Shown here in pieces: positions 6,176-64,000 of a stretch of 64,000 nt of DNA; within the stretch, counting starts at the first letter, position 1; every line of letters starts with the position of its first letter. The position numbers were made by a program, and so were the translations under genes. The notes below the pieces were generated by a model, which worked only from the letters and a program-made list of their open reading frames with translations, did not search any database and was not told the DNA's origin. Origin of the DNA: Climacium dendroides (taxonomy: Eukaryota; Streptophyta; Bryopsida; Hypnales; Climaciaceae); assembly GCA_950106755.1 (NCBI GenBank), contig OX467092.1:2418001-2482000 (forward strand), written 5' to 3'.

Positions 6176-7219
6176 TCAGTAAAGTTCAAGTACGCAACCT
6201 GTTGTGAGTAACCTTTGAACTTGTATCAACTTCATGCGGATGGCGGAGAAGGAAGGCCGTTCAGCAGGATCACCCCAGCATGATATCAAAAGCTCTCTCA
6301 GCAGTGGATGACAGGAAACAGGGAGGTCTGGCCTACAACCCGACAAAATTTTAACCATTAACTCTTTCCAGTCCAGATATGGATAGGGACTATGACCCGT
6401 CAAAATCTGCGAGCAGATCACAGCGAAGCTGTAGACATCGGATGACCTGATGCCTGCACAAGCTGAGGACACTTCGGGAACGGAACTTGGTGCTGATTCA
6501 GACTCTGATTCGGAAGAGGTTTCGTCTTCATCACCGTTCGAAGAATGGAGTCTTCGACCAAGAATCTTCAAAGACTCTGGCGATTTCCATCGAACCAAAT
6601 CGAGTTTTCGTACCTTACGAGAAACGATATATCTGCTCTTTCTTTTCGTCCCAACTAAGCCAAAATCACTCAATTTCAAAACCTTCGAACTCTGGGCTCC
6701 GTCTCTCCTATGGGTGACGAGAATGTTCTTCGTTTTCAGATCTCCATGCGCAAGACCTTGCTCATGCAGGTACTCCACGCCCGTAGCAATCTGCAACATC
6801 ATGTCTACAGCCTCCGGCAGATCGACAGGCTGCGTAGAAGTCGATGTAGAAGATTGTTTGCCAACCACACCCCGCTTAGAATCCATTCTTTTCTGCAATA
6901 AGCTCAGAAGGTCCTCATCCATGTACTCCAAGACGAGCGAGCAACTCCTCTTGTCAATGGTCCAACCATAGGTTTTCACGATGTTCTTATGATCCTTAAG
7001 ACCCACTAAAACAGTGGCCTCCTGTAAGAAGATATCCCTCTGTACTCCGACAAAGTCTTTTCTTGCATACCTCGCTCCTTTCCATGCCGTTTCATACCCG
7101 ATGCCGGACAAACCTTTACCTAACAGGCGCCTGCTCGGCAAATTTCTCGACTGAAACTCAAATGACATGCCCCGTCTGGAGGTCATAGAATTGTTTTCAC
7201 CATATTTCAGAGTGGCCAT
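6176..7219 (-). CDS. Protein kinase A (non-RD, serine/threonine- or dual-specificity-like)
   Basis: This uninterrupted frame from a real ATG (context GCCATGG) encodes 347 residues that are nearly all kinase domain. The glycine loop is at residues 34-41 (GKGLSGIG), the ATP lysine at K54 (ARKDF), the helix-C glutamate at about E67, the catalytic loop HGDLKTKN at 158-165, DFG at 185-187, a SPE version of APE at 213-215 and the DVYSFAV helix at 261-267. HGD replaces HRD, so it is a non-RD kinase; in plants these are often linked to immune or stress signalling, which is a family-level statement. An acidic Ser/Glu insert (about 228-246) lies between the activation segment and the F helix. There is no signal peptide or membrane segment, so it is probably cytosolic. 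It is almost identical to kinase B at 13.1-14.2 kb. Its 5' region is shared with kinase C. Confidence 0.85.
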   Translation of the reverse strand: MATLKYGENNSMTSRRGMSFEFQSRNLPSRRLLGKGLSGIGYETAWKGARYARKDFVGVQRDIFLQEATVLVGLKDHKNIVKTYGWTIDKRSCSLVLEYMDEDLLSLLQKRMDSKRGVVGKQSSTSTSTQPVDLPEAVDMMLQIATGVEYLHEQGLAHGDLKTKNILVTHRRDGAQSSKVLKLSDFGLVGTKRKSRYIVSRKVRKLDLVRWKSPESLKILGRRLHSSNGDEDETSSESESESAPSSVPEVSSACAGIRSSDVYSFAVICSQILTGHSPYPYLDWKELMVKILSGCRPDLPVSCHPLLRELLISCWGDPAERPSFSAIRMKLIQVQRLLTTGCVLELY

Positions 7220-45817: not shown

Positions 45818-46180
45818 TTTGTTCCACTAAAACTCTTTAAATCTAACATAGTGACTATATGTAACATTAAAGAATTCTATTTATTGATTTTGATCATTGA
45901 ACAAGCAAAGTAGAATTCAAATCAATTCCTATTCAATCAATTCCAAAAATTTCAAGTTGCTTGCTCGATGCTCAATGATTGAATCAATAAATGGAGCAAT
46001 TTTAGTGGTACATCACTATAAGAATCCCTTGTTTTTTTGGACATTAGCAACAAACATCCATGCTTTTTAAAACAGGAACATGAAGATGGAATTGCAACCA
46101 TGGGAGGCAAAATTGAGTTAGATGTTCCAATAAATGTTTGAATGTCATAAACAAAACGAGTTGATGTCCTATACAACAAT

Positions 46181-46329
46181 CACTAAAAGAAAATTGTGTT
46201 GGTTTACACAAAACCAAGATGATGTTTTTCAATGATGTTTTTCAACGCAAAATTTGGCGCTAGAAACAAGAAATCGCAAAAAAAACATCATCTTGGTTTT
46301 ATTGAGACCAATGCAATTTTCTTCTAGTG
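46181..46329. mobile_element. CACTA miniature element, 149 bp
   Basis: The ends CACTAAAAGAAAATTG and complement of CAATTTTCTTCTAGTG match over about 50 bp, including AAAACCAAGATGATGTTTTT. AAT flanks both sides (46178-46180, 46330-46332). The arms are nearly the whole element, so it is a compact hairpin. Confidence 0.9.
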
Positions 46330-47059
46330 AATGATATTCTTGAAGACATCAATAAAAATATAATCATATTCTATACAAAAAAAACATAGAAGTGACATAT
46401 TGACAAAGGATTTTGGTTTAATTCTAGGTAAGTTAGTAAAAATTACTATGGACTAAGGTAAAACATTGATCGCATATAAAAATATAGGAAAAAGGCAATC
46501 ATGTGATATGTTTTGAAAAAAAAAATTAATTTCAATTTTAATTTAAAAAAAATAAGAATGGCATTTGATGTGGCATTTGAGTGACATGGCATCCAACAAG
46601 GATGAAGTGGCATGCCACATTAGCACACTATGACACCATCTAAAAATTTCAATAATGTTTTTCTAAATATCAATTGAGACATCAACTAAAACATCAATTG
46701 AGACATCCAAATGTTTTTGTAATATCAACAAAGAAGTCAACAAAGACATCTAGATCTTTTTTGTGACATCAACTTCGACAACTTTGTATAATTTAGAGAA
46801 TTCACGTATTCCATAAGGTTTGTCTTCCCTCTTATCACTCCACTTGTATAAATAGTTTGTCTTTTTTTATCAATATACTCACAATAAATACCATATTTGG
46901 TATTTATGTCGCATGGCTTGACCTTGTCTGCTATGACATTGTTCTAAAAACAAGGCATGTTTGTCAAATTTCACCATATTTTTGTCATGTCAATTTAGAT
47001 GGATTTTTTTGAACATCAATGGGGTATGCCTGATGTTAGAAAAAATGTATATGTACATT

Positions 47060-48185
47060 CACTACAAGAAACAAGGAGTTCTACAACTATTGTTTGCAAC
47101 TGGTTTTGTAGTTGCATGGGCCGTTTGCAACTAGGTGACAATTTAGAGTTTACAGTTGTAGTAAACAAGTTGCATTAGTTGCAAAGCAGTTGCAAAAAAT
47201 TTCAAAGTTGTTTCTCATTCGATAGTATATTTGAAAGTTCGTCAATGAACTCTTCTGATGTAGTCGCTTACGTGGAAGTTATTTGTATGCAACTTGTTTG
47301 TGATTGGAATGCAACTGGTTTGCAACTAATGTGCTTGGTTTGCAACTTATTTATGACTTGTCTATAATTCATAGACTTGTAGATTTTGAAATTTTAATCT
47401 CAAAATTTGTAGATTCAAAATTTGACATCTATCTTTTTTTAGATCACCAAATCTAGAAATATCTTAGATGTTAAATATTTATAGATTTTTGTAGATTATA
47501 GAAATCTACAAATTGTGAAAATCTACAAATTATAGAAATCTATAAGTTGTAAAAATCTACAAATTATAAAAATGTATAAGTTGTGAAAATCTACAAAATA
47601 TATAAATATTAGAATTTCATTATCAAAATTCATAACACAAGAAAGTTATAACTTACAATTCTTATATGTTCAACTTAATGGTATTTTGTCAATTGATGGA
47701 TAATTAATAAAAGACTTAATAGTAGTTGCAATTGTAGTCTAGTTGCACTATAATTGCAGTCCAGTTGCATTGTAGTTGTAGTTTAGTTGCATTACACTTG
47801 TAGTCTAGTTGCATTACACTTGTAGTCTAGTTGCATTACACTTGTAGTCTAGTTGCATTGTAATTGTAATCTAATTGCACTCTAATTGAATTGCTATTGA
47901 ATTTAAATTATATGCAACTGTAGATAGACACATCGAACTCTACAGAATGTAAAATTGTCCACAACAATTGTGATGAATATTGAATGTAAAATACCTCACA
48001 TCAACTCTTTTGTTACATTCCTATGAGCGTAAATACATTTTGTGACTACTTTGCAACTATTTTGCAATTACAGTGTAATTATATCAAAGTTAGAACAAAT
48101 ATAGAGGATTGTAGTTGTAGGACAGTTGCATAGGACACGTAGTTGCATTTCAGTTTGTTGTAATGGACACGTTTTTCTTCTAATG
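47060..48185. mobile_element. Non-autonomous CACTA element, 1.13 kb
   Basis: The left end is CACTACAAGAAACAAGG; the right end in complement is CATTAGAAGAAAAACGTG (one change in the CACTA core). It is flanked by ATT on both sides (47057-47059, 48186-48188). Many TTGCA/TGCAA motifs occur near both ends, typical of CACTA subterminal repeats. A 22-bp tandem array lies inside. No transposase is present. Confidence 0.85.
47741..47872. repeat. 22-bp tandem array within the CACTA element
   Basis: Six units of exactly 22 bp start AGTTGCA and end GTAGTCT or a close variant. Units 3-5 (47785-47850, AGTTGCATTACACTTGTAGT plus CT) are identical; the outer ones diverge. This is the usual pattern of local expansion in a subterminal region. 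Confidence 0.9.
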
Positions 48186-48531
48186 ATTTATCAGCTTGTC
48201 CAAAAAAATGGTTTTTTCTTATAGTGTATACACTATTTGTAATTTAGATGTTTTTAATGGAACTAAGGGAATATTAATTTTAGAAGTATATAAATTTGTA
48301 ATGTATTGTAGTTGTATTGTTTATGTCTTTTGAACATATAGTGAGGTAGAAGTTACATATGAATCCAATTTAAACCCAATTAAATTTATTTTTTTAATTC
48401 CCAACCCAAACCCGCAATTCAAAACCAAACCAAATCAAACCAACCCCAACTCTAATTCTTACCACCTTGGGAACCACCTCCACTATTTATAATTTTGGAT
48501 TGATATGGAATATGCAATCACTATGGGATAT

Positions 48532-48641
48532 TGTCACGGACACTCTAGGACCTTCTAAGCTTTTCCATAGTCCATAGCACCTTCTAGAAACTTCCAAACT
48601 CTTCCAAAAACTTCCATAGTCTTCTAGAGTCTTTCCAAAAG
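48532..48641 (+). repeat. Truncated 5' LTR of the gypsy element
   Basis: About 110 bp match the start of the 3' LTR (TGTCACGGACACTCTAG...CTTCTAGAGTCTTCC). The remaining ~310 bp of LTR, with TATA box, R and U5, and a recognisable primer binding site, are missing before the gag ATG at 48693. It includes a perfect heat-shock-element pattern TTCTAGAAACTTC (48582-48594). Confidence 0.85.
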
Positions 48642-48692
48642 ATGGGTAATCTAGTCCGCACAAAATTTAGTTTTATTATTAAGTGAATTAAG

Positions 48693-49545
48693 ATGACAGG
48701 AAGTGAAGATGCAGGTATGATACAATCTAAATTAGATGTTATCTTAAAGGCCATTGATTTTTTGTCTATGAGAACAAATGTCTTTAAAGATTTTTCTGCA
48801 AAAACAAAGATAGATGAGGCATCTCAATCCATGTAAGCTGCCTCAATTATAGAAACGAGTTTACCTACTCACAACTACAACTCAAGTATGTCAACCACAT
48901 AGGAGTATCATTTTAGTCTTCCCAACAAATTTAATGGGATACGATCAAAATTTTGAGGATTTGTGAATCAAGTTCAACTCGTCATCTATCTTTACCCCCA
49001 ACAATTTCCATCAGACGAATCACGAGAGGCTTGATTGGAAGCTTGCTCAATGGACAAACTTTGTCTTGGTTTTCATCCCTATTTGAAAGAAGATCTCCAA
49101 TTTTGAGCAACTTTGATACATTTCTAGCAGCCTTCGCCGAGGCGTTTGGAGAATATGACAAGAATCGTTGGACGACAACTAAGATTCGTGCACTACGGTA
49201 AAGATCACACTCAGCCTCAACGTATGCATCGAAATTTTGACAACTTACTTGCGACATCAATTGGAGAAAAGAAGCAATGATAAGCCAATTCCAATGGGGC
49301 TTACGAGACGATGTAAATGATTTGTTATTATTATTTTTGGATCCTCAAACATTGAACAAAGCAATAAGCTAAGCTGAAAAGTGTGACAATCGATTAATTC
49401 AAAGGCGTCAAGATCAACGATTTTAGATTGTTTTAACACCACAAGCGAATCGTTCATCAACAGTAAAAATAATACAAATGACAGATTCTAAAGGCCCAGA
49501 AAACATGCAAATTGATGCAGTACGCTACGGACCATTGATCGTATA
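48693..49545 (+). pseudogene. gag remnant (gypsy)
   Basis: From ATG (MTGSEDAG) the frame meets a stop after about 48 codons. The capsid-like retrotrans_gag block is clear at 48953-49201 (LLNGQTLSWFSSLFERRSPI, FLAAFAEAFGEYD) and continues in another frame (QFQWGLRDDVNDLL). The remnant ends at PENMQIDAVRYGP, which in related elements sits just before the CCHC zinc knuckle. Knuckle and protease are absent. It would have packaged element RNA. Confidence 0.8.
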
Positions 49546-49559
49546 AGAAAAAAAATGAC

Positions 49560-49843
49560 GTTTTGATGTATAATTTATCACAAATTGAGCTTTCAACATT
49601 AAGAGAGTATATTGAAGAAATCTCACAAAAAACTTTATTCAACATTCTAAATTTCTAGCAAGAGCTCTAATACTTTTTGTAAAGAAGAAATATGGTTCTT
49701 TATGGATGAGTGTTGACTATAGCAGCTTAAACAAAATTACAGTAAAAAATCGATATCCTTTACTGCTGTTAATGCACATAAAAGAAGGGGACGAGTGGAA
49801 GACAACATTTCAAACAAAATATGAATATTTTGAATACAATGTT
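49560..49843 (+). pseudogene. Reverse transcriptase remnant, 5' part
   Basis: Reads [18 protein letters not shown], then [20 protein letters not shown] and NRYPLL, then jumps to [20 protein letters not shown]. The ~30 residues that normally lie between, with the first catalytic aspartate (FTKLDLR in relatives), are deleted. The frame continues at 57328 across the nested insert. Confidence 0.82.
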
Positions 49844-49939
49844 GTCTTGTTGTAAATTTGTACATAGTGTAAAAATATATTATAATATATTTTATTGAGT
49901 AGTTTTAAGGTGACACCGTTCCGAGAGGTGCATAACATT

Positions 49940-49947
49940 TATATAAG
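49940..49947 (+). promoter_or_regulatory. TATA box before the accessory ORF, left arm
   Basis: TATATAAG lies 68 bp before the ATG at 50015. The corresponding position in the right arm (complement of TTATATATATA near 57238-57248) and in the host gypsy element (TATAAAAA, 59795) also has a TATA box, so position is conserved in all three copies. Confidence 0.5.
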
Positions 49948-50014
49948 AGAACAATTTGCCTTAGAGCTTCATTGAAATCCTATAGTAGATTTTGTTTCCT
50001 ACTTCAGAGTTAGA

Positions 50015-50472
50015 ATGTTGAACTGGAGGGTTTTTCTGAGTCTCAAGATGAAGAACCTCAACTGGAGGCTAAATTTAAACTTTCGTTGTTACAACTGCCG
50101 AATCAACCTCTTTTATTACAAGATCTTGCATTGCCACCTAGGCATTTTCAAGATGAAGCTGGGCCTTTTCAACCATCAAAGCAACCTCGTGTGGAGCGGC
50201 GATGGCATGGTAATCTTGACACCGATGCTCATACTTTGGTGATCTTGCTCCAAGTTGGGTATGTTAAGCTAGGCACTCAGAAAGTGACATTCAAGGTGAA
50301 TTATAATGGTAAAAACATCGATTAATATTTTTGTATGGCTCAGCCGGTGAAAGGTAATTGTGGCCACTAACGTTGATTGGAAGGTTCAGTCAACCCATTG
50401 ACAAAAGCCGAGCGTACAAATTATGTTGTTGCCACCATCAAATGCATTCTCAACTTTTCGCAAATGGAGTGA
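50015..50472 (+). pseudogene. Accessory ORF, left-arm copy (degenerate)
   Basis: About 152 codons, with a one-base frameshift soon after the start and later in-frame stops (one after GKNID). Recognisable blocks are LNWRVF, RVERRWHGNLDTDAH, VILLQVGYVKLGTQKVTF, LEGSVNPLTKAERTNYV and IKCILNFSQME. It aligns end to end with the right-arm copy and with the gypsy copy at 59890-60351. I know no family with this signature. The basic RWHGNL and the hydrophobic VILLQVG strand suggest a small folded protein rather than a disordered one. Confidence 0.65.
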
Positions 50473-52010
50473 AGCTTTAATTGGAACTCTAATTTTTTTA
50501 CCTTTTTTAGGCATTTATTTGATGTTAGTTCCTAATTTTTGTTTTGGATATTTTAAAGAAAATCATAGTGTATGATTATAATTGTAGTAGAGAAGTTGGT
50601 GATGAAAAATTAGCTAAGAGGTTTGAAGTAAGAAATGAGTGTGAATGGGGATGTAGTTGGAATCTTAGGTGAGGTCTTGGTAGGAGCATAGGCTGAAGTG
50701 CCCCACCTCTCACCTTAGATGAGGAGGAAAAGTAAGAAAAGGGAGTTTTTTTGTGTGCGTATGTAGAAGGAGAGAAGAGTGGGAGCTCTGGGGTTTGAGA
50801 GGCCAAATTTTGGATTGATGTAGCTCATGGAGCATGGATTATTGAGAAATGAAACTTTGCCATCATATTTTTGGTACTTATAGCTTTCCAAAGAATATTC
50901 ACAAGTGAAATTTGGAGTTGGGATTCAAAAATTATTAAGGTTTGAAATTGTAAAGACTTAAGGACCTCCATCGAGATGTCAGAGGCTTCTTCAAGTCATA
51001 ATTTTTGATGTATTTATTATCTTGCTTTGAGATTTGGAGGGTGTATTTTTCTTCTTAATATCTTTCTAAAAAGATATTATATGTCTCATTTAAAGTTTGG
51101 AGCAAGAAGTTATAGGGTATTAAAATCTAGATTGAAGTTTAGACTTTTTGATTGAGAAGTTGAGGCTCTACCTTTCACAACCTTCGAATAGTATCTTAGA
51201 ATATTGTGAAACTTTCACAAGTTGTAGATAAGTGTAAGATCTTTTCAAATTGATGTCAAACTTGTTATTTGAAGTCCTAAATCAAAAGTTAATGAAGATT
51301 GAAGAGACAATAGTTGGTTTGAGGAGGGAGAAGAGGACCTCTACTTTGCCTTCTAATAACTTTTGAACAATAGTTTAAATTGAATTAAAATTTTCAAAGT
51401 GGTTAAATTGTGCTATTAGTTTTTTAAATCGCTATAGCATTTATCGTTTGGATTCTTAGAGCATCTGTAGCACTAGTTTGGAGGTCGTAGATAATGTAGA
51501 ACTTATTTTCCTTAGTTTCTATTAGAATTTTTAAAAGTTGACAAATGAAAGAAGATTTTAAGACTCAAGATTGAAGATTTGAAGTTCAAAGATGTGTATT
51601 GTGACTTATGACTTTTTGTTCTTCGCCGGATTTGGAAGTCCTTTGTCTTTATTTGTTATTCCTAATCGATTGGGAGGCTCATTGTTGTTTAGTTTCTGCA
51701 TTGTAAACCTATTGCAAGCTATGGTTATTCAATAAATGCTCCATTTTGTGTTTGTGGCGACGAAATGGGGTTAATGGTTCACATGGTCGATTTTATATGT
51801 TGTTTCCATTGATGAAAAGCGTCTTCTGGTCACCGTGGGTTTGAGGTTTAGGAGCCCATCATTCGGACGGTCAGCTTGTGTCTGATTGTCTTATTTTACT
51901 TGTCCAAGGACATGTTTCTTATTACTCACCCTTACCCCTTTTAGAGCTACCATAGGATAAGATGATTGAAGATTGGGTGAAGATTCAAGTTTAAAGATTT
52001 TAAAAACTAA
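50473..52010 (+). other. Left arm downstream of the accessory ORF
   Basis: Noncoding, matching the complement of the right arm. It contains the seed-like site GAGGTTTGAAGT (50619-50630 or so) where the other arm has its heptamer array, and repeated TATAACTTTTG/CAAAAGTTAT motifs. No gene. Confidence 0.6.
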
Positions 52011-52200
52011 ATGAAGATTCGAATTTCGAGATTCTCCGTCTATACTCAGCAACTTGCAGCTAAATACCCTATGTATTCCCTAAGCGTCCTCTTCTTTACC
52101 CGACAACATTGTCGAGTTGAGAGAGTTTGCTTCGGGAAATCGCGAAGATTCTGGCTGCGACTGGGAATAGTTTTGTTATGGGTTTTGTCAAATCTTCTTA
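52010..52200. other. Loop of the nested foldback
   Basis: About 190 bp unique to the centre. It contains the short perfect palindrome CGACAACATTGTCG. A 67-codon plus-strand frame (52011-52214) spans it, starting in the arm; I see no domain in it. It might be the remnant of a larger internal region. Confidence 0.5.
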
Positions 52201-53800
52201 TCTTGAGTCTTTAGTCTTCAATCTTCAAAACTTGAATCTTCACTTGATCTTCCGTTGGCCTATCATGTAGTGGTTCTATAGGGCCAAAAGTAAAGGTGTG
52301 TAATAAGAAATAAGTCTTCGGACGGGTAAAACGGGACGGCCAAACCACGAGTTGACCGTCCGGAAATTGGCTCCTAAACTTCAAACCTACGGTGACCAGG
52401 AAGCGCTTTTCACCAATAGGAACAACATAGAAGATCGACCATGTGGGTAATCAATCCCACTTCGTCGCCACAAACATAAAATGGGGATAATATTGTCATA
52501 AGAATGACTCCATAGCCCGCAACCAAATTTACAATGCAAAATTTAAATAACAACTAGCCTCCAAAACAGGCTGGAAAAACAAGAAATTCACAACGAGCCT
52601 CCAAAACCGGTTAGGATAAACAAGCCACAAGCCACAACACACGAATCTTCAATCTTCTTCCACTTTGAGTCTCAAATCTTCAATCTTGAGTCTTCAAAAT
52701 TTCTTTCACTCACAAACTTGAAGAAATTCCAACAAAAACTAAGAAAAACTAAGTCCCAAGCAAGCTGCAAACTTTGATTTAGTGTCACAGATGCTCTAGG
52801 AACTCAAATGCTAAGTGCTTCAGCAATTTAGAAAGCTAACAGCACAATCTAATCACTCACAAAATTTGAAACTATTCTAAGATACTGTTCAAAAGTTATT
52901 AAAGGACAAAGTAGAAGTCTTCTTCTTCCTTACTAACCAAACACTGTCTCTTTAAACCTCAATAACTTTTGATTACAAGATCGAAATACTATGTGTGAGA
53001 GCAATTTGAAAAGCTCTCACTACTATCTACAAGTTGTGAAAATATCACAATAATCTAAGATACTGTCCAAAAGTTATGAGAGGTAGAGTCTCGGCCTTCT
53101 CAAACAAGAAGATAGAAATCTTCTTAACCTTTGATACTTCATAACTTTTGCATTACAACTCCAATTTGTATAAATTAACACAATTTGAAAAACTAAAATG
53201 ATAATCTAAAACATATCAAAGTTTCAATTCCATCAAAAAAATTGACCAAAAGTTGTAGGCGTTGAAGTTACGGCCTTTTTCCTTTAAGTTCAAACTCCAC
53301 TCCAGACTTCATTACCTCATAACTTTTTGATAAACACTCCAAACGACAAATATCATATCTTTTTAAAAAGACATAAACAAGGACAATACACCTCCCAAAT
53401 ATCAAGTCAAATCAGTAAGTACTCCAAAAGTTATAGCTTGTTGAAGCCTCTGACCACTCAATGGAGATCCTTGGGTCTTCACAATTTCAAACTTTCATAA
53501 CTTTTGACTCCCAACTCCAAATTCAACTTACAAATACTCTTTGAAAAGCTCTGAATACAAGGAATGTTGTCCCAAATTTTCATTACTCAATTGTTTATGC
53601 TCCATGAGCTACAACCACTCAAAATTCGGCCAAAAACCTCCCATAATACATATACATACTTCACTTCATTTCTCTACCAACTAAGCATCTTTTCCCTCTT
53701 TTCCTCCCCATCTAAAGTGAAGGGTGGGGCACAACAGCCCATGCCTCTACCAAGACCCCACCTAAGATTCCAAACTAAATCCCCATTCACATTTTCCCTT

Positions 53801-56573
53801 AACTCCAAACTCCAAACTCCAAACTCCAAACTCCAAACTCCAAACTCCAAACTCCAAACTCCAAACTCCAAACTCCAAACTCCAAACTCCAAACTCCAAA
53901 CTCCAAACTCCAAACTCCAAACTCCAAACTCCAAACTCCAAACTCCAAACTCCAAACTCCAAACTCCAAACTCCAAACTCCAAACTCCAAACTCCAAACT
54001 CCAAACTCCAAACTCCAAACTCCAAACTCCAAACTCCAAACTCCAAACTCCAAACTCCAAACTCCAAACTCCAAACTCCAAACTCCAAACTCCAAACTCC
54101 AAACTCCAAACTCCAAACTCCAAACTCCAAACTCCAAACTCCAAACTCCAAACTCCAAACTCCAAACTCCAAACTCCAAACTCCAAACTCCAAACTCCAA
54201 ACTCCAAACTCCAAACTCCAAACTCCAAACTCCAAACTCCAAACTCCAAACTCCAAACTCCAAACTCCAAACTCCAAACTCCAAACTCCAAACTCCAAAC
54301 TCCAAACTCCAAACTCCAAACTCCAAACTCCAAACTCCAAACTCCAAACTCCAAACTCCAAACTCCAAACTCCAAACTCCAAACTCCAAACTCCAAACTC
54401 CAAACCCCAAACCCCAAACTCCAAACTCCAAACTCCAAACTCCAAACTCCAAACTCCAAACTCCAAACTCCAAACTCCAAACTCCAAACTCCAAACTCCA
54501 AACTCCAAACTCCAAACTCCAAACTCCAAACTCCAAACTCCAAACTCCAAACTCCAAACTCCAAACTCCAAACTCCAAACTCCAAACTCCAAACTCCAAA
54601 CTCCAAACTCCAAACTCCAAACTCCAAACTCCAAACTCCAAACTCCAAACTCCAAACTCCAAACTCCAAACTCCAAACTCCAAACTCCAAACTCCAAACT
54701 CCAAACTCCAAACTCCAAACTCCAAACTCCAAACTCCAAACTCCAAACTCCAAACTCCAAACTCCAAACTCCAAACTCCAAACTCCAAACTCCAAACTCC
54801 AAACTCCAAACTCCAAACTCCAAACTCCAAACTCCAAACTCCAAACTCCAAACTCCAAACTCCAAACTCCAAACTCCAAACTCCAAACTCCAAACTCCAA
54901 ACTCCAAACTCCAAACTCCAAACTCCAAACTCCAAACTCCAAACTCCAAACTCCAAACTCCAAACTCCAAACTCCAAACTCCAAACTCCAAACTCCAAAC
55001 TCCAAACTCCAAACTCCAAACTCCAAACTCCAAACTCCAAACTCCAAACTCCAAACTCCAAACTCCAAACTCCAAACTCCAAACTCCAAACTCCAAACTC
55101 CAAACTCCAAACTCCAAACTCCAAACTCCAAACTCCAAACTCCAAACTCCAAACTCCAAACTCCAAACTCCAAACTCCAAACTCCAAACTCCAAACTCCA
55201 AACTCCAAACTCCAAACTCCAAACTCCAAACTCCAAACTCCAAACTCCAAACTCCAAACTCCAAACTCCAAACTCCAAACTCCAAACTCCAAACTCCAAA
55301 CTCCAAACTCCAAACTCCAAACTCCAAACTCCAAACTCCAAACTCCAAACTCCAAACTCCAAACTCCAAACTCCAAACTCCAAACTCCAAACTCCAAACT
55401 CCAAACTCCAAACTCCAAACTCCAAACTCCAAACTCCAAACTCCAAACTCCAAACTCCAAACTCCAAACTCCAAACTCCAAACTCCAAACTCCAAACTCC
55501 AAACTCCAAACTCCAAACTCCAAACTCCAAACTCCAAACTCCAAACTCCAAACTCCAAACTCCAAACTCCAAACTCCAAACTCCAAACTCCAAACTCCAA
55601 ACTCCAAACTCCAAACTCCAAACTCCAAACTCCAAACTCCAAACTCCAAACTCCAAACTCCAAACTCCAAACTCCAAACTCCAAACTCCAAACTCCAAAC
55701 TCCAAACTCCAAACTCCAAACTCCAAACTCCAAACTCCAAACTCCAAACTCCAAACTCCAAACTCCAAACTCCAAACTCCAAACTCCAAACTCCAAACTC
55801 CAAACTCCAAACTCCAAACTCCAAACTCCAAACTCCAAACTCCAAACTCCAAACTCCAAACTCCAAACTCCAAACTCCAAACTCCAAACTCCAAACTCCA
55901 AACTCCAAACTCCAAACTCCAAACTCCAAACCCCAAACCCCAAACCCCAAACTCCAAACTCCAAACTCCAAACTCCAAACTCCAAACTCCAAACTCCAAA
56001 CTCCAAACTCCAAACTCCAAACTCCAAACTCCAAACTCCAAACTCCAAACTCCAAACTCCAAACTCCAAACTCCAAACTCCAAACTCCAAACTCCAAACT
56101 CCAAACTCCAAACTCCAAACTCCAAACTCCAAACTCCAAACTCCAAACTCCAAACTCCAAACTCCAAACTCCAAACTCCAAACTCCAAACTCCAAACTCC
56201 AAACTCCAAACTCCAAACTCCAAACTCCAAACTCCAAACTCCAAACTCCAAACTCCAAACTCCAAACTCCAAACTCCAAACTCCAAACTCCAAACTCCAA
56301 ACTCCAAACTCCAAACTCCAAACTCCAAACTCCAAACTCCAAACTCCAAACTCCAAACTCCAAACTCCAAACCCCAAACCCCAAACCCCAAACTCCAAAC
56401 TCCAAACTCCAAACTCCAAACTCCAAACTCCAAACTCCAAACTCCAAACTCCAAACTCCAAACTCCAAACTCCAAACTCCAAACTCCAAACTCCAAACTC
56501 CAAACTCCAAACTCCAAACTCCAAACTCCAAACTCCAAACTCCAAACTCCAAACTCCAAACTCCAAACTCCAA
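53801..56573. repeat. Heptanucleotide satellite (AACTCCA)n, ~396 copies
   Basis: An uninterrupted 7-bp periodicity of AACTCCA (complement TGGAGTT) runs for 2.77 kb, almost error-free. Variant units AACCCCA occur in three small clusters: two units at about 54402, three at about 55928 and three at about 56369. The sequence is two changes from the plant telomere unit CCCTAAA in register and the variant one change, but there is no true telomere unit. Long frames translated from it are artefacts of the repeat. It lies in the right arm of the nested foldback only. Confidence 0.95.
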
Positions 56574-56708
56574 GCTAAATACTGTCACTAATTTTTCATT
56601 CTACATTAATAATCACACACTAATTTCAATAAAATACTCAAAGTAAAAAAACTAACATCCAATAAATGCTCACTAGAGGTAAAAAGAACTAGAGTTTCAA
56701 TCAAAGCT

Positions 56709-57167
56709 TCATTTCATTTGCAAAAAGTTGAGAATGCGTTTGATAGTGGCAGCAACATAATTTGCACGCTCGGCTTTCATCAATGGGTTGACTGGACCTT
56801 CTAACCAACGTTGGTGGCCACGACTACCCTCCACCGGCCGAACCATACAATAGTACTGATCGATGTTTTTGTCCTTATAACTCGCCTCGAATGTCACTTC
56901 TCGAGTGCCTAGCTCAACACACCCAACTTGGAGCAAGATCATCAAAACACGAGCATCGGAATCAAGATTTCCGTGCCATCGCCGCTCTATGCGAGGTTGC
57001 TTCGACGGTCAAGAAGGCCCAGCTTCATCTCGAGGATGCCTAAGTAGCAATGCAAGATCTCATACCAAAAGGGGCTGCTCCGGTAGTTGTGACAAGGAAA
57101 GCTCGAATTCAGCCTCCGGTTGAGGCTCTTCATCTTGAGACTCAGAAAAAACCCTCCAGTTTGACAT
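56709..57167 (-). pseudogene. Accessory ORF, right-arm copy (frameshifted)
   Basis: This is the best preserved foldback copy: ATG at 57167 (MSNWRVFSESQDEEP), then ELSLSQLPEQPL, then a frameshift, then QPRIERRWHGNLDSDARVLM, ILLQVGCVELGTREVTF, YYCMVRPVEGSRGHQRWLEG and ILNFLQMK with TGA at 56709. About 153 codons overall. The gypsy copy shares MSNWRVF, the SMSQLPDQPL block, PRIDQPWHDNL and VLVILLQVG. It faces the left-arm copy across the loop. It has an upstream TATA box. Function unknown. Confidence 0.65.
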
Positions 57168-57327
57168 TCTAACTGTAAAGTAGGAAACAAAATTCACTAT
57201 TGAAAAACAATGAAGCTCTAAGGCAAACCGTCCTCTTATATATATATCGGAACGGCGTCACCTTGAAGCTATCTAATAAAATATATTATAATATGTTTTT
57301 ATATAATACACAAATCTACAACAGGAC

Positions 57328-57645
57328 AACGTTATGTTGTTCGAACTATCAAATGCACCAGCTATCTTTCAACATTTAATGAATGACATTTTCCGCGAGT
57401 TTTTAGACCAATTTGTCGTATGTTACCTTGACAACATTTTGATATATTCTAAAAATATTGAAAAATATGAAAAGCACGTAAAACTTGTATTGCAAAAACT
57501 ACGAGATGCAGAGTTATACGCCAAATTGGAAAAATGTGTATTTCATCAACCACAAGTAGAATTTCTTGGATACATCATCTCCGACAAAGGATTATTGATG
57601 AATCCAAAGAAGATTCGAACTATCACAGATTGGTCAACTCCTTGA
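57328..57645 (+). pseudogene. Reverse transcriptase remnant, 3' part
   Basis: Continues the RT interrupted at 49843: MLFELSNAPAIFQHLMNDIF, then the catalytic box as YLDN instead of YLDD within VVCYLDNILIYSKNIEKYEK, then CVFHQPQVEFLGYIISDKG. The Asp-to-Asn change alone would be expected to kill polymerase activity. Confidence 0.9.
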
Positions 57646-58260
57646 ACAGTGTGTGATGTTCAATGCTTTCTTAGATTTGCAAACTTCTGTCGGATCTTTA
57701 TCAAAAACTACTCACAACTAGTGGCTCCGCAAACGTGGTTAATTTGCAAAGACAAGTTAAATTAGGGGCTAGAAGCAAAGAAAACCTTTTCAACATTTGA
57801 AGTTAGCTTTTACAATAGCCCCAATTTTAACCCATTCAGACTTTTTCAAGCCATTATATATAGAAATAGATGCTTTAGACTTTGCACTAAGAGCAGTTCT
57901 TTCACAAATGGGAGCAGAAGAGAAACTCCACCTAGTTGCATTCTATACAAGAAAGTTTTCAGCAAAGATTAATTATGAGATTCATGACAAAGAACTTCTT
58001 GCAATTGTGAATTCTTTTTAGGAATGACGTCTATTACTTGAAGGTGCATCCCATCCCATGACTATATACAACTATACATAGACCACAAAAATCTTGAATA
58101 TTTCATGTCTGCTCAGGTTTTAAATCAACAACAAGCTTGTTGGAATACGTCATTACATATCGTCCTAGAAAACAACAAGGATTATCAAATGCCTTGTCTC
58201 GAAGATCGAATTTAGCACCAAAAGAAGGAGAAGCAGCATACGACCAACAACAAATGATTC
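57646..58260 (+). pseudogene. RNase H remnant (gypsy)
   Basis: After a connection segment (QCFLRFANFCRIFI) the RNase H block reads PLYIEIDALDFALRAVLSQM and DKELLAIVNSF, retaining an Asp and the Glu of the active site. Stops follow, and the third part (TDHKNLEYF-like) is only partly readable. Confidence 0.82.
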
Positions 58261-58299
58261 TTCTTAAGTCTGAAAAATTCCAGCTTTGAGCAACAACTA

Positions 58300-59510
58300 T
58301 GGCAATACCAGTTGATTCTTTATTCCTTGATCAAATTTGTATGGCATCAACTTCAGATCCTTTAATTCTTAACATCGAGCGTCGGATTCATCACGATGAC
58401 AATATTTTTAAGTTGGCAGACAATCTTTTATATTTTGAGGAACGATTATATGTTCCAAAAGGTCCTTTATGACTTCAAGTTCTTCAAACCCGACATGACT
58501 TTTCTACCGCTAAACATTTTGGGTTCAACAAAATGTTAGAACTTGTATCACAAGATTTTGGATGGCCTCAAATATGAAAGACTGTTAAAAACTTTGTATT
58601 ATCTTGTGACACTTGTTTATGATCCAAAAATTTATGCCATCAACCACATGGACTTCTTTAGCCATTACCCATTCTGAAACGACCATGGTCTTCAATTTCT
58701 ATAGATTTTATTACGGATTTACCACCATCAAAATCATAAGACTCCATATGTGTAATTGTGGATTGACTTACAAAAATAGCACACTTTTCTCCATGCAAGA
58801 AGACAATCACTAGCGAAGAAACAGCAAGGCTCTTTTTTGAGACTATTTATCGATATCATGGATTACTAGATGATATTATATCAGACCGGGGACCACAATT
58901 TGTCTCCAAATTTTGAAAATCCTTTTTAAAAATTTTGAAAATGGACATCAAACTTTCTTCTACATTTTACCCTCAAACGGATGGACAAACGGAACGTGTA
59001 AATCGAATGTTGGAACAATATCTACGTTGCACCATCAACTATCAACAAGATGATTGAACTTTACATTTGAGTTTGGCAGAGTTTGCATACAATAATACTA
59101 TCTACATTTTACATGTTAGACACCATTTTACGCTAACTATGAGTATCATCCGAAATTTGATTTGCTTAATATATCTAAGATAGACAATTTAACATCAAAA
59201 GATTTGGCATTAAGGTTATCTAAGCTCCAAGAAACAATGAAATTTCATCTACAAGAAGCTCAAGTTCATTACAAAACATATGTAGATATGTTGCGTAAAG
59301 AATCACCTCTATTAAAAGTTGATAAAAAGATTTGGTTATTCCGACGCAATATCAAAACTACTAAACCATGCAACAAATTAGATTATCGATGCTTGGGACC
59401 AATTTTTATTCTAAAACAAATCAACGCTATTGCCTTTCGGTTGGAGCTTTCAACATCGATGAAAGTACATCCGATATTTCACATTTCTCTTCTAGAACCG
59501 TATAAATAAT
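58300..59510 (+). pseudogene. Integrase remnant (gypsy)
   Basis: An HHCC-like region (RHDFSTAKHFGFNKM, SCDTC) is followed by the catalytic core (SISIDFITDLPPS, IISDRGPQFVSKF, TFYPQTDGQTERVN) and the C-terminal domain at 59162-59509 (LLKVDKKIWLFRRNIKTTKP, MKVHPIFHISLLEPYK). At least seven in-frame stops or shifts disrupt it. It would have inserted cDNA. Confidence 0.88.
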
Positions 59511-59545
59511 CATATCTTCCGAGAAGAAGTCAACCACCATCGCCT

Positions 59546-59752
59546 TTGATTGAAATAGATAATCATAAAGAATATAAGGTGGAAAAGGTATTTGATTCAC
59601 GTCGCAGACGTGATAACGTGGAATATTTGGCACATTGGCATGGATATGACATCAATGAATGCACATGGAAATCAACAACAAATTTGACTAATGCACCGCA
59701 AAAGGTATATGAATTTCACCAATTATATCTTGATAAACCACGGTTCATTTAA
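59546..59752 (+). pseudogene. Chromodomain at integrase C-terminus
   Basis: Residues YKVEKVFDSRRRRDNVEYLA, HWHGYDINECTWKSTTNL and VYEFHQLY form a chromodomain, with the aromatic positions Y/W/Y-like retained. In chromoviruses this module targets integration to particular histone marks. The reading frame is intact over this part. Confidence 0.88.
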
Positions 59753-59794
59753 AAGTAGTAATGTCTTGGACAAGCCTCCCCGTCCAAAATCTGA

Positions 59795-59802
59795 TATAAA
59801 AA
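59795..59802 (+). promoter_or_regulatory. TATA box before the accessory ORF of the gypsy element
   Basis: TATAAAAA lies 43 bp after the chromodomain stop and 95 bp before the accessory ATG. This suggests a separate transcript for the ORF, as in the two nested copies. Confidence 0.5.
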
Positions 59803-59889
59803 GGGGAAAATTCATACAATAGTATAGTCTTCATTTTAGTTTCAAGAAAAGTTAGTAGTCTTTTATTAAGCCTCAATGGAAATTCCAAT

Positions 59890-60351
59890 ATGTCTAATTG
59901 GAGAGTTTTCAAAGACTTGTTAGATCTAGAACATGAGCTTAAGCTTGAGCTTGAGCCAGAGATTGAGCTTTCTATGTCACAACTTCCGGACCAGCCGTTA
60001 TAACCTCCAGATGTTGCAGTATCACAATCTGAAGACAAAGATAGATCTTCGGTACAACAAAAGCGACCTCGCATAGATCAACCTTGGCACGACAATCTTC
60101 AATCTAATACTCGAGTTTTGGTAATATTGTTGCAAGTTGGAAATCTTGAATTCAACGGTCCAGAAGTAACATTCCTAGAATGTTTTGAAGGTTTGAACAT
60201 TGAGCACTATCGCCCTAGAGTTCACCCTATGTAAGGAGGTCATGGTTACAATCATTGACTTCAAGGACCAGTACATCTTCTACCACCAGAACAAAGAGCA
60301 ATTTATGTTGTAGATACTCTTCTTTGTATTTTTAATTTCTTGCAAATATGA
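59890..60351 (+). pseudogene. Accessory ORF of the gypsy element (154 codons, 3 stops)
   Basis: From ATG (MSNWRVFKDLLDLEHELKLE) to TGA the frame is unshifted over 154 codons, with three internal stops (after QPL, HPM and YNH). Conserved blocks shared with the foldback copies are MSNWRVF, LSMSQLPDQPL, KRPRIDQPWHDNL, RVLVILLQVG, PEVTF and IFNFLQI. It lies between the chromodomain and the polypurine tract, where other gypsy lineages sometimes carry env-like or additional ORFs. There is no signal peptide or transmembrane segment, so it is not env-like. Unknown function. Confidence 0.7.
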
Positions 60352-60389
60352 AGCATGTATCACATAAGCTCCTTTTGGAACTCGTCGCT

Positions 60390-60403
60390 AGAAAGAGAGG
60401 TGA
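60390..60403 (+). other. Polypurine tract of the gypsy element
   Basis: AGAAAGAGAGGTGA directly precedes the 3' LTR, at the expected position for plus-strand priming. Confidence 0.75.
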
Positions 60404-60823
60404 TGTCACGGACACTCTAGAACCTTCTAAGCTTTTCCATAGTCTTCTAGCACCTTTTAGAAACTTCCAAACTCTTCCAGAAACTTCCATAGTCTTCTAG
60501 AGTCTTCCAAAAGTTTCCATTGTATTCCGGAAGCTTCCATAGTGCTCTAGAAGCTTCTATAGTGTTCTAGAAGATTGTATATTGCCCTAGAAGCTTCCGT
60601 AGACCTCTAGAGTCTTTTATAGAGTTCTAGAATAACCGCTTGATTGATGGTATATATAGAAGTCGAGGTTGAGGTAGTCCTCAATCTCGACAACGCAAAT
60701 CTTCAATCTTAGTTCTTGAATCCATTTCTAGCCTTGTACTTCTTGACTCTAATATCAAGTCTTGTTATCTGAAACTCATTTTGTCTCGTCTTATCTTGCT
60801 TTATATCTTACTTGTCCATTACA
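60404..60823 (+). repeat. 3' LTR, 420 bp, with heat-shock-element array
   Basis: It starts TGTCACGG and ends CCATTACA, then GATAT. U3 is made of repeated CTTCTAGA/GAAGCTTCC motifs and has two perfect TTCnnGAAnnTTC patterns (60475-60487 and 60525-60537) plus several with one mismatch. A TATATATAG box is at 60650. Just downstream (60662-60691) is a 13-bp stem-loop. Confidence 0.88.
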
Positions 60824-60828
60824 GATAT

Positions 60829-61863: not shown

Positions 61864-64000
61864 ATGAAAACTATTAGTGATAATTGTTTAAACTTCAATT
61901 GTGTACATATGTTGGAAGCATCTACAAACACATTTTCCTTTTGGAAAAATCTCAAAATTTATACTTCTAAAAGTTCAAAGTCTAAGAATTGCATGCCCAA
62001 ATTTTGTATAGACAGTAGATATCAATATATTTAAACAAGTGAACTAGTCTTGTGGAAGCTAAGCATTCAAAAACACCCCCCAAAGCTGGGGGTAGGGTGA
62101 GACTAAGCTTATTAGGATTTTATTGAAACCAATTTTTTTCTACATATTGCTATATATCAACAAAGGATTAAAAAATACGTGCCTAAAATTGCATGAGTAC
62201 ATATCTCCAAATATATCTCCATATATATATATATGTTATGAATTCCAAATAATTTATTTTTTAATAAATATGATCAATAATGACCACCTTTAAAGGAAGA
62301 AGGGTGGCTAGTGTTTTTGAAGGATTAGAGTATTAGAAGTCATTGGATATTAAAATTTGAGAATAGCATATTATCATTATTATGTAGTATTTAAATTGTA
62401 AAAGCCCTTTGCAATATAAGAAATGAAGGGCCATTAATAGATAAGCAAGTATCATTAAAGGATTGCAACAAACTTGGCCAAATAAAATGTTTGGGCCATA
62501 TTTGAAATATTGAATATTAAAAATTTGTGTAATTTGGACATCAATGACTTCAATTCTTGTCTCAAACCTATTTAAGTCTTTGTAATCAACATTGAGATTT
62601 TCTACTATTGTAGTTAGATCTTAGGTTTGGCCTTCTAGTGCCAAATATTTAATTTAAGTCTAAAATAAACTTTGATACTTTAAAATATTATTTTTTGAAA
62701 AATTAAGCATAGAATATACTAAAATTAAAAAAATTGCAACTACTTTACATTTCTCTAAAAGGCACTTGTAACTAGTGTACAAAGATGAGAAGACAAGTTC
62801 TTTAACAAAGTGGGGTGGTTGGAGGTCCCCCACATGGAATATATAAATTATGATTAGTATTAATAGCTCAACTCATAGTCAAGTCAAAAACAAGAAATGT
62901 GTTCAAAGTAGAATTTTAGACCTCATTTAAGAATAATTTTTTTCAAAACATTTTGAACTAAACTAATGTAGAAAATTGAACTAACTTTCATCCTCAATTT
63001 TTTTTGAGATTGTGAGCCTTTGATCAAAAGTTATGGACAAAATTTAGAGAGGGATTGGAAAAGACAATTTTTCATATTTTGAAACATTCTCTCTAAATTT
63101 TGTCCATAACTTTTGTTTGGAGGATCAAAATCACAAATGGTCATATGGAGATGGAATTTAGCTTCATTTCCCAATTTTTCTTAGTAAAAAGTTAAAAAAA
63201 AAAAGTTTATTCTACTATGACAATATGAAGTTGAAATTCTACATTGAACACAATTCATGCATTTTAATAATGAATAGTCAAGCTCTCATCATCAAATTGT
63301 CCCATATTCTTTGAGGATTCATGATAGGCAATGGATTTAATTATGAAAATGACCTCTCCATCCTTCATTTGCACCCAATGTTAGTTCCTTTAGTGGGCCA
63401 TCAAAAGTTTTCTTGATGATAGATGATTAAATGAAAGATTGGTATTTGACTCAATGGATTATTATTGCATTCTCTAAACTTTCAACTAAGCATCTTTACA
63501 TTTATTTGTTGATTTGGCTATAAGTAGTTTCAAAATGAACATAGAAATATTAATTTAAACCTAATTTACTATATGGGTACAATAGTCCTCAATAAAGTTA
63601 GAATTAGCTCAAATTGTTATCATCTTTTTTATCATTAAGGTGTGATTTTAGAAATTGCATTGGACCTTCAAATAGTGTAAGTACATGAGATGGGAAATCA
63701 TCTTTGTAAATTTTTTTTAAATGTGGGATGCACATGTTTATAGTTGACTATAAGAAAGTTATGCAATAGCTAGGAATGCACTCTATTTATTTGATTTATA
63801 AATTGTAAAACAAAGCCATTAAATTATTAAGCAAATTTGTAGTTTGTATACATTTAAAAGTCAAAATGAGTTTTTGATTTCATTTTTACCTTATCATTTT
63901 CATTTAGATTGACTAAAAAAATTCATGTAGGTGAATCAAATTTGATGTGTTAGTACCATAAATCTTTTTGTAAAGGTCAAATTTATTAAGATATAACTTA
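61864..64000. other. AT-rich intergenic DNA, no gene
   Basis: No coding region recognised. It holds an AT dinucleotide run near 62222-62234 and a perfect inverted repeat at 63026-63114. Confidence 0.55.
63026..63114. repeat. Perfect 26-bp inverted repeat with 37-bp spacer
   Basis: AAAAGTTATGGACAAAATTT plus AGAGAG at 63026-63051 is the exact complement of 63089-63114. A transcript would form a small hairpin of miRNA-precursor size. Confidence 0.85.

Follow-up and report, generated by a model that had tools for sequence, protein, structure and literature searches.

A sense-strand accessory gene of gypsy retrotransposons, apparently of mosses, and a nested foldback best read as a head-to-head LTR pair

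The window, i.e. the whole 64,000-nucleotide stretch of Climacium dendroides DNA analysed here, contains a decayed Ty3/gypsy chromovirus (48532..60823, plus strand), identified by its LTR ends, a chromodomain and a piece of RT, which carries an accessory gene and is split by a foldback. Its LTR start TGTCACGGACACTC is found at 48532 and 60404 and its LTR end TTACA at 60823; the LTR termini are thus TGT...ACA, and GATAT flanks the element on both sides as a target-site duplication (48527..48531 and 60824..60828). The 5' LTR is a truncated remnant (48532..48641, plus strand) with 94% identity to positions 60404-60513 of the 3' LTR (60404..60823, plus strand), which is adjoined by a presumed polypurine tract, AGAAAGAGAGG (60390..60400, plus strand), read from the sequence. 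The chromodomain (59573..59722, plus strand; PF00385, E 2.5e-12) lies downstream of the integrase, for which the zinc-binding match has an E of 8.1e-15 and the core reaches 28.5 bits, under the cut-off of 32.6. The initial annotation described the RT gene as split by the foldback. On the right, 3' of the foldback, this is confirmed by an RT match (57346..57579, plus strand; PF00078, E 3.5e-18) that starts at profile position 123 of 205. The left part has no Pfam match in three frames and was read by eye, so that Pfam shows the split on the right side only.

A search of all six frames of the window with a profile of relatives identified three copies of the accessory gene and no fourth, all of them broken. 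The chromovirus copy (59890..60351, plus strand) is located on the sense strand, 3' of pol and between the chromodomain and the polypurine tract, where a 154-codon ORF had been annotated; the position holds, but the frame, of 153 codons plus a stop, is interrupted by stops at codons 38, 115 and 123 and so does not qualify as an ORF. The copy in the left arm of the foldback (50015..50478, plus strand) is frameshifted at about codon 8 and contains additional stops, and that in the right arm (56709..57167, minus strand; 152 codons plus a stop) is interrupted by stops at codons 36 and 53. As initially proposed, the frames of the chromovirus and both arms are homologous end to end: the chromovirus and right-arm proteins align with a local score of 306 versus a maximum of 54 in 1000 shuffles, and the remaining five frames of the former copy give scores of 21-34.

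The foldback itself (49843..57328) consists of two diverged arms, recognised as inverted pairs and read as LTR-derived, with their U3 ends outwards; both ends start with TGTCYTGTTGTARAT. The flanks ATGT (49839..49842) and ACGT (57329..57332) may represent a 4-bp target duplication with one mismatch. Between the arms lies an unpaired centre (51993..52227), the innermost inverted pair listed being 51937-51992 / 52228-52283, and 396 copies of the 7-base unit AACTCCA occupy 53801..56573 in the right arm only. Neither the inner boundary of the foldback LTR nor a primer-binding site could be located. The arms differ by 16-26%, more than expected of a freshly made palindrome. In the arm ORF, transversions are much scarcer (7/464) than in the inner arm (131/1351; Fisher 1e-10), a pattern that fits selection or gene conversion.

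The two ends of the foldback align with the 3' LTR of another gypsy element, here called L001, and begin at the very base where that LTR starts; the inner right arm is also collinear with L001 (E 8e-6 to 1e-4). Matches to the end pattern TGTCYTGWTGTARAT with up to two mismatches were confined to the two foldback ends, a count that is no evidence since 1.95 are expected by chance. L001 has an intact pol frame (2-2314), in which RNase H and the integrase zinc-binding domain are matched, followed by the purine tract AGAGGGGG (2346-2353), the LTR start TGTCCTGATGTAAAT (2359) and the accessory frame (2589 onward). Because the frame is downstream of the polypurine tract, the accessory gene would lie inside the LTR, and in the L001 lineage it thus seems to be coded within the terminal repeats, a position taken from this one truncated 3.3-kb locus, in which the 3' third of the gene is damaged, together with the foldback ends; no element with both LTRs was seen. 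The end of the L001 pol gave no chromodomain match, tblastn with this pol found no match in the window, and a scan of IMG/VR gave no relative of its integrase piece. The record that contains L001 is labelled a cyanobacterial bin and that of the relative P0010 a Bacilli bin; both are presumably moss contamination.

The claim that the chromovirus cassette recurs once in each foldback arm, complete with leader and TATA box, is upheld for the gene copies and fails for the leader. The likeness of the chromovirus leader to the two foldback leaders is at chance level (217/500 and 175/500 shuffles score as high), as is its likeness to the L001 leader (367/500); that of the foldback leaders to the L001 leader is equalled by 1/500 shuffles for the left arm and 10/500 for the right. 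The sequence taken for a 'TATA box' in the chromovirus coincides in part with a run of 13 purines, and the matches to a TATA-like motif were obtained with a permissive pattern and no chance control.

Beyond the window the gene belongs to a large family with many intact members. With the right-arm copy as query, 68 of 77 candidates were related at E <= 0.001, 56 of them at least 136 aa long, and a profile search over 7860 candidates retrieved 939 at E <= 0.01 (120 listed); the only plant named among the matches listed is the moss Ceratodon. The initial statement that no described family has this signature agrees with Pfam, which returned no family for two window copies (E up to 1) and five relatives (E up to 10), and with NCBIfam, which returned none for four relatives (E up to 1). 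Rfam gave no match at gathering scores, and no relative of the gene was found in IMG/VR or among plasmids. The titles and abstract starts listed by literature searches contained nothing on this gene family, on such an accessory ORF in mosses or on genes located within plant LTRs. In a tree of 103 rows, the chromovirus copy clusters with P0101, P0093 and P0111 (146, 148 and 124 aa; SH-aLRT 98), and the foldback copy with P0003, P0004, P0006 and P0007 (SH-aLRT 98) within a separate 66-row clade (100). The two copies thus belong to separate old subfamilies, and therefore neither is the direct source of the other. Two proteins, P0112 and P0120 (Ceratodon KC19_5G095800), contain two domain copies each, are 70% identical to one another and branch outside the single-domain rows when the tree is midpoint-rooted, a root that serves for drawing only and at which long branches meet.

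Although all window copies are broken, comparisons between lineages indicate that the frame was once selected as a protein, as had been suggested. The dN/dS ratios of five pairs are 0.20 for right arm-L001 (bootstrap 0.09-0.37), 0.26 for right arm-chromovirus (0.13-0.43), 0.31 for chromovirus-L001 (0.15-0.56), 0.36 for chromovirus-left arm (0.16-0.60) and 0.19 for L001-left arm (0.09-0.38), with synonymous sites of these deep pairs near saturation (dS 1.2-1.8). Deep neutral simulations (three settings of 500) gave medians of 0.58-0.82, a lowest 2.5% bound of 0.37 and no value at or below 0.26. In contrast, the ratio between the two arms (0.54, 0.30-0.96) is indistinguishable from neutrality: neutral drift with the transition-rich spectrum of the ORF itself gives P 0.387, and three other settings give 0.09-0.30.

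The accessory protein comprises approximately 137-152 residues and includes positions conserved across subfamilies. A first structure model built from 68 relatives had a pLDDT of 44 and was set aside. The second (99 of 142 proteins) predicts an ordered, conserved C-terminal domain of approximately 85 residues, in which two long strands lead through a loop to a short strand and then a long helix, preceded by an N-terminal part (SQDxE..LSLSQLP) of low model confidence. Comparison of this model with PDB, VIA and BFVD gave no trusted structural match, and the best hit of a sequence search of solved structures (E 0.49) is at chance level. A double-stranded-RNA-binding fold was considered in view of the strand-strand-helix order, with no search match backing this reading. 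Only 8/144 proteins have a KRPR-like basic motif, and nuclear localisation is therefore not claimed.

Considering these observations as a whole, we find it probable that the accessory gene is a sense-strand gene of Ty3/gypsy retrotransposons, apparently of mosses, and that the foldback represents a head-to-head LTR pair of a second lineage. The gene lies between chromodomain and polypurine tract in the chromovirus, and in the L001 lineage it would lie downstream of the tract, within the LTR, and there be under the control of the LTR promoter; a full L001-type element would presumably carry it in both LTRs. We infer that such a pair of LTRs was put into the chromovirus RT by integrase-like chemistry, and a pair of gene-bearing LTRs would account for one gene copy per foldback arm. 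Most likely, the gene is shared by several moss gypsy lineages, and its product may act in trans for the element. A regulatory role, e.g. in helping expression or escape from silencing, seems the likeliest but can be put forward only tentatively. It is also conceivable, if speculative, that the LTR constitutes a complete mobile gene, with promoter, 150-residue frame and terminator in one repeat, so that any solo LTR, full element (twice) or inverted LTR pair could express the trans-acting protein, and that this module spread among unrelated gypsy lineages and into moss host genes.

Other explanations differ in the origin of the gene or the nature of the foldback. A moss host gene may have been captured more than once by mobile elements, with the family of P0112 and P0120 as donor; their duplicated domains and their outlying branch agree with this. 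Yet only these two tandem-domain proteins were present among 36 found (7998 candidates sharing most words scored), and since the midpoint root is a mere drawing aid at which long branches converge, the opposite course, in which an element gene was domesticated, agrees with the tree equally well. We regard host capture as a rather unlikely though reasonable alternative. The long inverted arms, as well as the asymmetric satellite confined to one arm, would suit a foldback or Mutator-like DNA transposon that took the gene from a gypsy LTR. Such foldback/MULE transposons have a target duplication of about 9 bp, whereas the flanks here agree only over 4 bp as ATGT/ACGT; moreover, the arm ends correspond to the LTR start beside the L001 purine tract, the arm interior matches the L001 LTR too, and no ORF of at least 80 aa is listed in the arms outside the satellite array. 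We consider this origin improbable, and the foldback is best read as two LTRs placed head to head in the chromovirus RT.

The initial annotation proposed that one element took the cassette from the other, or that the foldback derives from the 3' end of a related chromovirus. The homologous frames speak for it, and a derivation from a gypsy 3' end is retained, but from another lineage and specifically from its LTR: L001 has no chromodomain match, the likeness between chromovirus and foldback leaders does not exceed chance, and the separate subfamilies in the tree weaken the proposal to the point of being very improbable. Finally, the frame might have been kept as RNA or DNA, e.g. as a promoter or silencer element, which would be compatible with three broken window copies and with a long hairpin that the foldback RNA could form. 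Between-lineage dN/dS ratios well below the neutral medians and the residues conserved across subfamilies leave this explanation with very little probability.

Under the preferred reading of a gypsy accessory gene, several known systems offer parallels. The chromovirus copy resembles the sense aORFs of plant LTR-retrotransposons such as Athila and Bagy2, as far as these are described in the available part of PMC7264820, in position, strand and being extra to gag-pol, but it has no Pfam match, and that part of the source does not mention a gene within the LTR as proposed for L001. Antisense additional ORFs are described there as having no similar genes outside elements; one of them, gene23 of Grande, has its own promoter and encodes a nuclear protein (PMC7264820). 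The gene described here is likewise an accessory gene of gypsy elements and may have a promoter of its own, but it is sense rather than antisense. Tcn1-like chromoviruses occur in non-seed plants and fungi, and, according to PMC2864245, SM-Tcn1 shares with the window element the chromodomain, the TG...CA LTR and the 5-bp duplication, but has two ORFs, gag and pol, and differs from the window chromovirus with its accessory frame; this material could be related. MMTV sag is coded in an LTR, as the gene in L001 seems to be. It is situated in U3 and expressed from the 3' LTR, whereas the L001 frame is downstream of the presumed LTR TATA box. The proposed trans role has a possible analogue in VANC, the anti-silencing proteins of VANDAL DNA transposons, set apart by element class.

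The additional ORFs of plant retrotransposons are mostly of obscure origin and role. The family described here is coded on the sense strand, common to at least two gypsy lineages, selected as a protein and seemingly LTR-coded in one lineage, and the annotation of the Ceratodon genome includes a relative with tandem domains; the LTR-pair reading puts a known element class in place of a supposed foldback transposon. Gene targeting is routine in mosses, in which gene exchange between retrotransposons, and the roles of such genes, become testable.

The decayed Ty3/gypsy element at 48532–60823 is delimited by TGTCACGGACACTC, the LTR start found at both 48532 and 60404, and by an LTR end TTACA at 60823, with GATAT on either flank. 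Together with a chromodomain at 59573–59722 (PF00385, E 2.5e-12), upstream of which lie integrase pieces, these features confirm the chromodomain-bearing gypsy element (hereafter chromovirus) of the initial annotation. Its 5' LTR is reduced to ~110 bases; in the 3' LTR, subrepeats of 20 and 50 bases fill much of the first part (60435–60611); a 22-base tandem array of seven copies (47730–47888) lies upstream of the element. The 7.5-kb foldback (49843–57328), which consists of two inverted arms, is located in front of a reverse transcriptase (RT) piece that runs from 57346 on and starts at position 123 of the 205-position Pfam profile. The RT gene reads as split by the foldback, its right side being identified by Pfam and its left side, where no Pfam match was obtained, only by eye.

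Three copies of the accessory frame are present in the window, and a search of all six frames with a profile of its relatives found no fourth. The chromovirus copy (59890–60351) had been described as an ORF; the frame is there, but it is interrupted by stops at codons 38, 115, and 123. The right-arm copy (57167–56709, minus strand) has stops at codons 36 and 53, and the left-arm copy (from 50015) is shifted out of frame near codon 8 and contains additional stops. Homology of the frame between chromovirus and foldback is well supported, with a score of 306 for the chromovirus versus right-arm proteins, compared to a maximum of 54 in 1000 shuffles and 21–34 for the remaining five frames. The proposed common leader was not supported, as 217/500 and 175/500 shuffles scored as well. 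A lax pattern detects a TATA-like sequence 75 to 95 bases upstream of the ATG in each copy.

Between lineages, including the truncated gypsy locus L001 from outside the window, dN/dS (NG86; dS 1.2–1.8 and thus near saturation; usable resamples, 414–495 of 500) was 0.20 for the right arm vs. L001 (bootstrap 0.09–0.37), 0.26 for the right arm vs. the chromovirus (0.13–0.43), 0.31 for the chromovirus vs. L001 (0.15–0.56), 0.36 for the chromovirus vs. the left arm (0.16–0.60), and 0.19 for L001 vs. the left arm (0.09–0.38). Neutral simulations of similar depth gave medians of 0.58–0.82 with 2.5% bounds of 0.37–0.51, and none of 500 runs in each of three settings was as low as 0.26. Because the observed values fall below these simulations, the accessory frame was maintained as a protein while the lineages diverged, in agreement with the selection suggested earlier. 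Left and right arm yielded 0.54 (0.30–0.96), a value compatible with neutrality, as 39% of neutral runs with the ORF's own spectrum reached it.

With the right-arm copy as query, 68 of 77 candidates were related at E <= 0.001 (identity up to 83%), 56 of them at least 136 aa long; as the database holds called proteins, broken copies are under-represented. A profile search retrieved 939 of 7860 candidates at E <= 0.01, of which 120 were listed. Named relatives include Ceratodon purpureus M758_4G185300, whose cluster has 25 members, whereas P0010 and P0091, from records called Bacilli and Synechococcales bins, are taken for contamination. Ceratodon, the one species named among the listed relatives, suggests a moss host. 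Three Ceratodon relatives with locus tags 6G, 4G, and 5G (P0138–P0140, 137 aa) are almost identical, a pattern that recent mobility of the gene would produce. With the equally similar P0137 (a cluster of 41 members; 137–139 aa overall), they probably represent an element family that was active recently and carries a different type of accessory gene. The claim that no described family carries this signature held for Pfam and NCBIfam, which matched none of the family proteins tested. Conserved residues are concentrated in the C-terminal part, predicted to form two long strands (pLDDT about 70–78), a loop (54–63), a short strand, and a long helix (79–85); the whole model has a pLDDT of 59.8, and fold libraries gave no trusted match.

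A quick tree without bootstrap, rooted for drawing only, was built from 103 rows: 97 proteins of an alignment that takes in 99 of the 142 fetched, four domains from two tandem proteins, and two window copies. It placed the chromovirus copy, on a long branch, with P0101, P0093, and P0111 (SH-aLRT 98), and the foldback copy with P0003, P0004, P0006, and P0007 (98) inside a 66-row clade (100). These separate groups argue against direct capture of the cassette by one element from the other; despite the tree's limits, neither window copy is the direct source of the other. The tandem proteins, P0112 and P0120 (Ceratodon KC19_5G095800), each contain two domain copies, and the two proteins are 70% identical; they may represent a host donor of the domain or a domesticated element gene, and a root set for drawing does not give the direction between the two.

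L001, the only locus from a scan of genome contigs (3322 bases, from a cyanobacterial bin record), encodes an intact gypsy pol frame (2–2314) in which RNase H and the integrase zinc-binding domain are matched and the integrase core scores slightly under its cut-off. Pol is followed by AGAGGGGG (2346–2353), TGACA, and then TGTCCTGATGTAAAT, which begins at 2359; the accessory frame opens at 2589, and at 2950–3060 other sequence replaces its 3' third, apparently through a deletion within the LTR. The foldback outer ends, TGTCTTGTTGTAAAT and TGTCCTGTTGTAGAT, both align to the TGTCC start at 2359 in L001, leader similarity to L001 was matched by 1/500 (left arm) and 10/500 (right arm) shuffles, and more L001 pieces match the inner right arm collinearly (E 8e-6 to 1e-4). 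Based on this one truncated locus and the foldback ends, the accessory gene of L001 seems to lie 3' of the polypurine tract, within the LTR, and the foldback is best read as two L001-type LTRs with their U3 ends outward. Its suggested derivation from the 3' end of a related chromovirus is therefore retained as regards a gypsy LTR, but the end of L001 pol has no chromodomain match. Neither an inner LTR border nor a primer-binding site was found in the foldback. Its flanks, ATGT/ACGT, agree over 4 bp with one mismatch, a possible 4-bp duplication. The arms differ by 16–26%, suggesting either an origin from different copies or a long period of decay. Given this divergence, the AACTCCA array restricted to the right arm (53801–56573; 396 copies, 2.77 kb, 99% matching) probably reflects a late expansion, or else an assembly effect.

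If the TATA-like sequence within the LTR is the element's own promoter, a short message for the accessory protein could start from any LTR. The protein might act in trans, e.g. by controlling expression or by helping the element to escape silencing. Judged by the other accessory genes treated in PMC7264820, a regulatory role would be most plausible. A figure legend of PMC2864245 lists an extra ORF, its function unknown, in a gypsy element, and the words "ORF" and "accessory" are absent from the main text of PMC7466625 on Physcomitrium elements. Elsewhere in the window, two short hairpins of MITE-like size occur at 46177–46333 and 63003–63137 (arms of 53 bases, 85%, and 49 bases, 86%), and the minus strand at 6200–7200 resembles a protein kinase gene, judged by eye.
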